Part shown: positions 1 to 34,469 of the stretch, one piece after another
Layout of the letters: each line of letters opens with the position of its first letter
How positions within the stretch are numbered: position 1 is the first letter of the stretch
DNA from: a bacterium
GTDB taxonomy: Bacteria; DUMJ01
Assembly: GCA_026418035.1 (NCBI GenBank)
Contig: JAOACC010000060.1
Coordinates: forward strand, 1-34,469
Length of the DNA: 34,469 bases
Direction of reading: 5' to 3'
The notes under the pieces: generated by a model
The model's database searches: none
Told to the model about the DNA's origin: nothing
Seen by the model: the letters and a program-made list of their open reading frames with translations, nothing else
Translations under genes and position numbers: made by a program

Positions 1-572
1 TTGGGGGTAACTATACTGTGTCCTAGTTCCCTTGCAAATTCATAACCATCTCCTGTAGAACCAGTCTCAGGGTAAGATAAGCCCCCAGTAGCAATAATTA
101 CACTATCTGAAGGGATAAATCTTCCATCACTAAGAGTAACACCTATAACCCTACTGCTGTCTTTAAGAACCCTTTTTATTTCTCCTTTTATTATCTTCAC
201 ATTATTACTTCTTAGATATCTTTCCAAGGCATCCAATATATCCTTTGCTCTATCCGACTCTGGAAATACTCTGCCCCCTCTTTCAACTTTAGTCTTAACC
301 CCTAGACTATTAAAGAACCTGATTAGGTCTTTATTAGAAAATTTAGTAAATGCACTATATAAAAATCTTCCATTTACAGGTATATTATCAATAAGTCCCT
401 GTAGGTCAGTATCGTTAGTAAAATTACATCTTCCCTTTCCAGTTAAAAGAAGTTTCTTACCCAAAGTATTATTCTTCTCTATAAGTAAAACTTCTAAACC
501 TCTACTTCCAGCGGTTCCTCCTGCCATCATACCAGCAGGTCCGCCACCAATAACTATTACCCTTTTTGACAT
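1..572 (-). CDS. NAD(P)/FAD-dependent oxidoreductase, HI0933/BaiN family (3' end truncated by window edge)
   Basis: Not in the ORF track because it is open at the edge. The reverse complement from ATG at 572 reads MSKRVIVIGGGPAGMMAGGTAGSRGLEVLLIEKNNTLGKKLLLTGKGRCNFTNDTDLQ..., with the Rossmann GGGPAG motif and the GKKLLLTGKGRCNFTN motif typical of HI0933-family flavoproteins, and no in-frame stop to position 1. Confidence 0.9.
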   Translation of the reverse strand, partial: MSKRVIVIGGGPAGMMAGGTAGSRGLEVLLIEKNNTLGKKLLLTGKGRCNFTNDTDLQGLIDNIPVNGRFLYSAFTKFSNKDLIRFFNSLGVKTKVERGGRVFPESDRAKDILDALERYLRSNNVKIIKGEIKRVLKDSSRVIGVTLSDGRFIPSDSVIIATGGLSYPETGSTGDGYEFARELGHSIVTP

Positions 573-32001: not shown

Positions 32002-33364
32002 CTTTCTTTAATTCCTCCTTGAGATTTCTCCAAAATTCTAGAAAGAAGGCTAAAAATATTCCCAAAAATAGGGAAGCTACTCCAGCGATAAGGACATTAA
32101 GCATCGTGTTAGGCTTACTATGTTTTTCAGGCGGTACAGCATAATCTAATACTTGAATCTCTACTGATTCCCTGGCTTCACTTATTTTTGCCTGTTCGTA
32201 TTGAGTAGAGAGTGTAGTATATATAGCTTCTTGCAACTTTACATCTCTAATAAGCTTAGAGAGTTGTAAACTCAAATCCGGAAGTCTACTTATCTTCTCA
32301 TCATATTTTGATATAAGTCCTGTCAAACCTTGATATTTAGCCTCTAAAGAGATCCTTTTAACACTCAAATCAAACAATTCTGGAGTAGAAAGAGTTCCTA
32401 ATGCATCGGATAATCTCTCTATTTCTTCCTTCATAACCCTCTTTATCTCAGTTATCTGCTGCTTCACTTCAACCACTTTAGGATGAAGTTCCCCATAATC
32501 TTGTAACAGAGTAGCTAAAGTAACTTCGCTTTCTATAAGCTTTTCTCTCCAAGTCTGAATCTTAGGATCTGAGCTTATAGTAGTTATTGTAAGAGGGTCT
32601 TTACCCAAAAGTTCTGCCTGAGACTTTAGAATGCTCTGAAGATTATTTATCTGAGAATTTACAGCATTTAGCTCTATCTGGGTAGATTCTTTCTGAGCCT
32701 GCAAATTAGCCATATTATCTATCAAGGCCTTAGTCTCATCACTTACGCTGATTAGCTTATACTTTTCTTGGAAGGCTTTAAGCTTAGATTCTGCCTCGTT
32801 TAGAAGTTTCTCTGTCTCTCTTAACCTTCTCTCTAAAAATAGTTTCTCCCTCTGGGCAGAACTAAGTATAATCTTAGACGTTATCTCCTTTAAGGCAGAT
32901 ATATATGTATTAGATATATCTGCAGCCAATTGAGGACTTTTAGCTTCTGTAGTTATCTCCATAGTATTCTCTTTTGTATCGCTTATCTTCACAGATTTCT
33001 GTAAGATAGATATAGCCCTCTGTAAGCTATTAGTATTAAACTCTTCTTCTAGCTTTAACTTTTTAACAACATATTCTGCTGCTGATCGACTCTTAAGAAT
33101 AGCGGAATAATTCGCTCCCACCCCTCCTGTTAAACTCGAAATTCCTGTTATAGGAAGATACTGTAGGAGCTGAGCACTTATTCCAGTACTTTTTTCACTA
33201 GGTAAAAGTATTACTGCCTTTGCAGAATATATCTTAGGACTTACCTTACTAAAAACATAAGCCCCTATAACAGCTAATAGAAAGATCGATATAATGTATA
33301 CTCTTCTCTTCCTTAAGACTTTTATAAGGTCAACTAGACTTATTTCTTCTTCCATAATTACCAC
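31988..33364 (-). CDS. Wzz/chain-length-determinant family protein
   Basis: ISLVDLIKVLRKRRVYIISIFLLAVIGAYVFSKVSPKIYSAKAVILL; coiled-coil middle; C-terminal PPEKHSKPNTMLNVLIAGVASLFLGIFLAFFLEFWRN. Confidence 0.9.
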   Translation of the reverse strand: MVIMEEEISLVDLIKVLRKRRVYIISIFLLAVIGAYVFSKVSPKIYSAKAVILLPSEKSTGISAQLLQYLPITGISSLTGGVGANYSAILKSRSAAEYVVKKLKLEEEFNTNSLQRAISILQKSVKISDTKENTMEITTEAKSPQLAADISNTYISALKEITSKIILSSAQREKLFLERRLRETEKLLNEAESKLKAFQEKYKLISVSDETKALIDNMANLQAQKESTQIELNAVNSQINNLQSILKSQAELLGKDPLTITTISSDPKIQTWREKLIESEVTLATLLQDYGELHPKVVEVKQQITEIKRVMKEEIERLSDALGTLSTPELFDLSVKRISLEAKYQGLTGLISKYDEKISRLPDLSLQLSKLIRDVKLQEAIYTTLSTQYEQAKISEARESVEIQVLDYAVPPEKHSKPNTMLNVLIAGVASLFLGIFLAFFLEFWRNLKEELKKDEDS

Positions 33365-34449
33365 CCAAATAGAGAGCCAAATGTATCTTTTAGTATCCCA
33401 ATACTCATAAGTATCTGAACAAGGTCTTGCCAGCCTCTAAAGAGAAGTTCTGGAACATAAACTATATCATCTTCTTTGATTTCTATATCCAGTTCACTTT
33501 TACCTTTCTTAACAATGTCTTCATAATTGACTGTTATCATTTCAGGTTTATCCCCACTCTGTCTAATAACAGTAACCTTCTTAAGGTCTGCTCTATCCTT
33601 TATACCACCCGCAGTACTTATATACTCAGTAAGTCTTCTCCCTTCTACATATTCTATAGCTCCAGGGCTATTAACCTGTCCTAATACATAGACAAGTCTT
33701 CTTAATGCTGGGATAAATATACTATCTCCATCTTTTAACAAGACATTGTTCTTTTCATCCCCTCTAAGTGCATAGTCCACATTAAATAGAATATCCTCTT
33801 TCTTACCACCTACAGTTCGTTCAATCTTTGCCAAGGTCCTTGTAGATTGAGGTGTTAATCCGCCAGCTCTTATAAGTAAGTCTCTTATTCTATCTCCTTC
33901 TCTTATCTCGTATATGCCAGGTTCTCGTACTTGTCCAAAGATTCTAATTGTTTTCTCCATCGGAGGAACAAATATTACATCACCATCTATAAGACGTAAA
34001 CTTACCTCCTGTGTTATATCTCCTAAGACTAAAACTCTATAAAGGTCAAGAACAGCTATTTCCTTTCCTCCTCTAAGGACTTTTATATTCCTAGCGCTTG
34101 CAGTAGGTAATATACCGCCGGCACGAGATATTAGTTCAGATATCCTAGCTCCTTCTCTAGCCTGGCTAGGAAGCATTTCACCAGTTGGAGTTCCACTTAT
34201 TTCTCCAGAAGTCAAGGTAATAGCCCCAGGGTTCCTAACTTGACCTAAGACGTAAACCCTATCTATCTTAGTGGGTATTCTAATTAGATCTTTGTCCTTT
34301 AAAAGAACTTCAGAAGATTTAAGAAAATCCAATTCTATAATCTCTCCAGAAACCCTTTCGATAATTCCTCCTACTAGACTCGCCTTGGGGGTTAATCCCC
34401 CTGCCATCTCTATGATGTCTTTTAGCCTATCCCCTTCTACTATCTCATA
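33358..34449 (-). CDS. SLBB-domain polysaccharide export protein (5' end truncated by contig end)
   Basis: Repeated SLBB units (EGDRLKDIIEMAGGLTP, DRVYVLGQVRNPGAI, IRIFGQVREPGIYEIREGDRIRDLLIRAGGLTPQS, VYVLGQVNSPGAIEYVEG). The MCIRDR residues in the track are adapter-derived and excluded. Confidence 0.9.
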   Translation of the reverse strand, partial: YEIVEGDRLKDIIEMAGGLTPKASLVGGIIERVSGEIIELDFLKSSEVLLKDKDLIRIPTKIDRVYVLGQVRNPGAITLTSGEISGTPTGEMLPSQAREGARISELISRAGGILPTASARNIKVLRGGKEIAVLDLYRVLVLGDITQEVSLRLIDGDVIFVPPMEKTIRIFGQVREPGIYEIREGDRIRDLLIRAGGLTPQSTRTLAKIERTVGGKKEDILFNVDYALRGDEKNNVLLKDGDSIFIPALRRLVYVLGQVNSPGAIEYVEGRRLTEYISTAGGIKDRADLKKVTVIRQSGDKPEMITVNYEDIVKKGKSELDIEIKEDDIVYVPELLFRGWQDLVQILMSIGILKDTFGSLFGW

Positions 34450-34450
34450 C

Positions 34451-34469
34451 CTGTCTCTTATACACATCT
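34451..34469. other. Residual Nextera transposase adapter sequence (assembly artefact)
   Basis: Terminal 19 nt are CTGTCTCTTATACACATCT, the standard Nextera read-through adapter sequence. Confidence 0.97.

Follow-up and report, generated by a model that had tools for sequence, protein, structure and literature searches.

The window, which is the whole stretch of 34,469 nucleotides analysed here, ends in 19 nucleotides that are almost certainly Nextera library-construction DNA left by read-through, and these give a truncated export gene a false start. The feature is confirmed as a sequencing-library artefact of a familiar type that affects an otherwise ordinary polysaccharide-export gene, and no biological feature stands behind it. 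Its relevance is one of data hygiene only, and trimming of the adapter also reveals real adjacencies between contigs.

The terminal 19-mer and its surroundings

In a Nextera (Tn5 tagmentation) library, both sides of each insert carry the 19-bp mosaic end, followed by one of two different tails. The final 19 nt of the window are CTGTCTCTTATACACATCT without a mismatch, and a scan of the window allowing up to 3 mismatches revealed no second site for the 19-mer. The base composition (35.8% GC) predicts 5e-7 exact copies by chance for the window and 3e-5 for the whole assembly of 2.13 Mb. The same string is given as a trimming string together with GACGCTGCCGACGA and CCGAGCCCACGAGAC (PMC6460022), and the identical 19 bp are described as the Tn5 mosaic end (PMC8269240). 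The original prediction that the last 19 nt are Nextera adapter is supported by the exact match, by the copies present across the assembly at other contig ends, and by Nextera tails at 14 of these ends. The features of the window are as follows.

1-18, plus strand: 18 nt identical to the last native nt of contig C145, beyond which C145 enters adapter; the left boundary of the window is a false break
3-572, minus strand: N-terminal 190 aa of an FAD-binding enzyme of the aminoacetone oxidase family (TIGR00275), interrupted where the contig begins
31988-33364, minus strand: Wzz/GNVR chain-length determinant gene, downstream of the export gene (Pfam Wzz 6.6e-14, GNVR 5.4e-13)
33358-34449, minus strand: native 363 aa plus stop of a polysaccharide export protein of the Poly_export/SLBB type; 5' part absent
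34392-34450, minus strand: 59-nt overlap, without mismatch, with the 3' end of contig C33, which is native where the window has adapter
34450-34467, minus strand: false start ATG TGT ATA AGA GAC AG/g, encoding MCIRDR, in which codon 6 combines 2 adapter bases with 1 native base
34451-34469, plus strand: untrimmed Tn5 mosaic end, non-genomic; an exact match, unique in the window, to the common part of both Nextera adapters

Distribution of the adapter in the assembly

The window is contig C86 of an assembly (G000) of 168 contigs, with 336 contig ends and a size of 2.13 Mb. A search of this assembly for the exact 19-mer gave 38 copies, 19 per strand, and 0 for a reversed control pattern. All 38 copies lie at contig ends or within 18 nt of them and point outwards, and none is internal. 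A 14-nt probe added 7 ends with copies shortened to 16-18 nt, so that 45 of the 336 ends carry adapter. The sequence stops exactly at 19 nt at 24 of these 45 ends and at 16-18 nt at 7, while outward of the 19-mer GACGCTGCCGACGA or CCGAGCCCACGAGAC tails, whole or partial, are present at 14 ends (6 i5 and 8 i7).

Comparison of overlapping contigs revealed native sequence in one contig where its partner has adapter in three pairs, C33 and the window, C145 and the window, and C65 and C83. The ends of C65 and C83 share 48 nt, and each contig has adapter where the other continues, which is the picture a 48-bp insert would leave if reads passed through it in both directions. At the left boundary of the window, TIGR00275 model positions 1-184 are found on the window and positions 182-400 on C145 (G000:C145:1-1500), the latter under an MCIRDS start, and the joined frame runs for 408 aa with no stop. 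The adjacency of C145 and the window, brought out by adapter trimming, is real. A further candidate pair, C58 and C155, has 58 nt in common, but C155 diverges upstream of them and no adjacency was drawn.

The adapter could have been placed by chimeric ligation or by a scaffolding step and not by read-through of short inserts, and internal adapters beside N runs in Streptomyces and Actinoplanes scaffolds speak for such a route. For the present assembly we regard it as improbable, since no internal adapter was found in G000 and the overlap of C65 and C83 is exactly the stretch between two adapters, which is what a read-through insert would give.

Far less credible is a natural origin of the 19-mer as a Tn5/IS50-like transposon end, with the contig stopping at a repeated mobile element. 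The mosaic end is derived from the ends of Tn5, repeated elements do break contigs, and 38 contig-end copies would fit a multi-copy element. However, the 14 ends that run into two different Nextera tails leave a natural sequence or element no explanation, as they carry no element sequence, and the 7 shortened ends stop inside the 19-mer itself. A search for insertion-sequence or transposase DNA outside the 19-mer at the G000 ends found none, only adapter tails or the contig end. The phylum is represented by three genomes, all of one genus, and a search of the two congeners (G001 and G002) found 0 copies of the 19-mer, which is therefore not a conserved sequence of the genus. The adapter tails, together with the uninterrupted native sequence that overlapping contigs have in the same places, rule out a natural transposon end.

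The false start of the export gene and its missing 5' part

The adapter at the window end has its effect on the minus-strand ORF 34467-33358 (369 aa), which begins MCIRDRYEIVEG and is an SLBB protein in its remainder. Five codons (MCIRD) consist wholly of adapter, whereas the third base of codon 6 (G, 34450) is native. The native codon at this hybrid position is GAG (Glu) in the overlapping contig C33, which indicates that the R of MCIRDR is also artefactual. Native residues begin with Y (codon 34449-34447), and MCIRDR is followed by YEIVEG. The earlier description of MCIRDR as fused to a genuine SLBB protein thus stands for the ATG, which lies in the adapter, and for the SLBB remainder, but has to be corrected for the sixth residue, whose codon is only partly adapter. 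Pfam analysis of the window piece identified SLBB domains PF10531 (5.3e-37) and PF22461 (1.5e-36).

Analysis of C33 located the 5' part of the gene in the same assembly, in agreement with the prediction that the real gene continues beyond the contig. Before the 59-nt overlap, C33 reads AGGTAAGGAATCCAGGGGA where the window has adapter, with GGGGA preceding GTATGAG. The region G000:C33:3057-3779 encodes the first 241 aa, with Poly_export (PF02563, 3.6e-13) and SLBB domains. Compared with the intact 767-aa protein of the congener G001, C33 covers residues 1-241 (91% identity) and the window residues 405-767 (89%). The missing 5' gene part is partly recoverable from C33 without raw reads. In the intact orthologue, 404 aa precede the residue with which the native part of the window protein begins, and the predicted falsity of the N-terminus is borne out by this. 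An uninterrupted ORF with an ATG in the 19-mer could be cited for native coding sequence here, with MCIRDR as the authentic beginning of a short SLBB protein. This reading has practically no probability left: it is ruled out by the 767-aa congener protein and the C33 overlap, and the 19-mer also stands ahead of unrelated genes at the 44 other adapter-bearing ends.

The SLBB gene of G001 (G001:C1:55500-60000, minus strand) contains a stretch of about 158 nt twice, 546 nt apart. This repeat measures 157-158 nt, with exact runs of 99 and 58 nt and about one mismatch between the copies, and the 59-nt overlap of C33 and the window falls inside the repeated stretch. Such an in-gene module duplication of the congener SLBB gene would hinder short-read assembly. 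C33 and the window may join directly, giving a protein of 585 aa, or a middle piece of about 182 aa may have been lost from a gene of 767 aa. The sum of 585 aa and 182 aa (546/3) equals the exact 767 aa of the congener, which makes a lost middle piece the likelier case and a direct join the less likely one. A search for the middle piece in the organism's own assembly found none, yielding just paralogous SLBB repeats of at most about 50% identity, a result compatible with either arrangement.

Protein signatures of the adapter and their occurrence in public sequences

Read inwards, the mosaic end supplies an ATG in one of its frames (MCIRD followed by R or S, depending on the next native base), a GTG in the second (MYKRQ), and a TAA in the remaining one. 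MCIRDS results where AG is completed by C or T, and the C-terminal fusion forms are CLLYTS, VSYTH, and LSLIHI. In G000, 14 of the 45 adapter ends open a false-start ORF of at least 60 aa (3 MCIRDR, 5 MCIRDS, and 6 MYKRQ), and another 21 ends have an outward frame, open over at least 60 aa, that reads into the adapter. The suspicion that MCIRDR N-termini are artefactual accordingly agrees with the 8 ends that open an MCIRDR or MCIRDS ORF of this length, but it was drawn too narrowly, because MCIRDR is one of several forms; MCIRDS, MYKRQ, and the C-terminal forms are commoner in this assembly, and most cases would escape a screen restricted to MCIRDR. Comparison of the adapter-encoded peptides with PHROGs models gave no match, a weak test given such very short queries. 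A literature search for MCIRD as an artefact returned unrelated uses only, a result that does not show it to be unreported. At contig ends, proteins starting with MCIRDR, MCIRDS, or MYKRQ or ending in CLLYTS, VSYTH, or LSLIHI are unfit as seeds for protein families, and these adapter-derived termini are likewise unfit for signal-peptide predictions and start-site statistics.

Beyond this assembly, a sample of 289 other species genomes contained 4 with the 19-mer. Among the matches listed, which form non-random samples of 84 viral and 87 genomic matches, 83 of the 84 viral and 79 of the 87 genomic ones sit no more than 100 nt from the end of the stretch compared, nearly all with the same tails, and some of the others are internal, beside N runs in scaffolds. 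Also among the matches listed, 31 of the 162 terminal ones open an MCIRDR or MCIRDS ORF of at least 100 aa. Contig breaks and gene starts made by adapter very probably exist in a measurable share of public genomes, and trimming could rejoin neighbours such as C145 and the window.

Individual records show other placements of the adapter. In Streptomyces and Actinoplanes scaffolds (L186, L218, L239, and L255), the mosaic end plus CTG or CTGA stands internally, directly before an N run. The genome of Escherichia phage vB_EcoM_WFK, deposited as complete, has the mosaic end and i5 tail inside it (MK373775.1:149749-149781), and its annotated long tail fibre gene terminates within this stretch. In the record of Escherichia phage ev207 (LR597636.1:1-186), the hypothetical protein VUF52988.1 spans the mosaic end and i5 tail at the record start.

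Proposed origin and comparison with known systems

The identity of the adapter, its position at the contig end, both tails, the native sequence of C33, and the homology of the truncated gene were all observed directly. The course of events that we infer from them begins with reads of short inserts, which would pass the far edge of the insert and enter the mosaic end. With this read-through left untrimmed, the assembly would follow the insert into the adapter and then halt. The halt would often come at exactly 19 nt, as at 24 ends here, since the i5 and i7 adapters diverge at that point and the assembly graph would branch. The mosaic end would then supply an ATG or GTG from which an ORF caller would assign a plausible false start to the truncated gene. 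In the window, the gene so affected would be the 3' part of a Poly_export/SLBB export gene lying upstream of Wzz, with its 5' part on C33.

Compared with the known Nextera adapters, which consist of the mosaic end CTGTCTCTTATACACATCT and one of the two tails, the window end has the exact 19-mer, and both tails occur at other ends of the same assembly. Unlike the full adapters, the window's own end has the common 19 nt only, and the tail type is not distinguishable there. The gene itself is similar to those of outer-membrane polysaccharide export proteins of the Wza type, with the Poly_export domain on C33, SLBB domains on both pieces, and the Wzz/GNVR gene adjoining. It differs from them in its length, which exceeds that of the NCBIfam equivalogs (no such model reached its cut-off), and in its many SLBB repeats, and is otherwise an ordinary member of this group.
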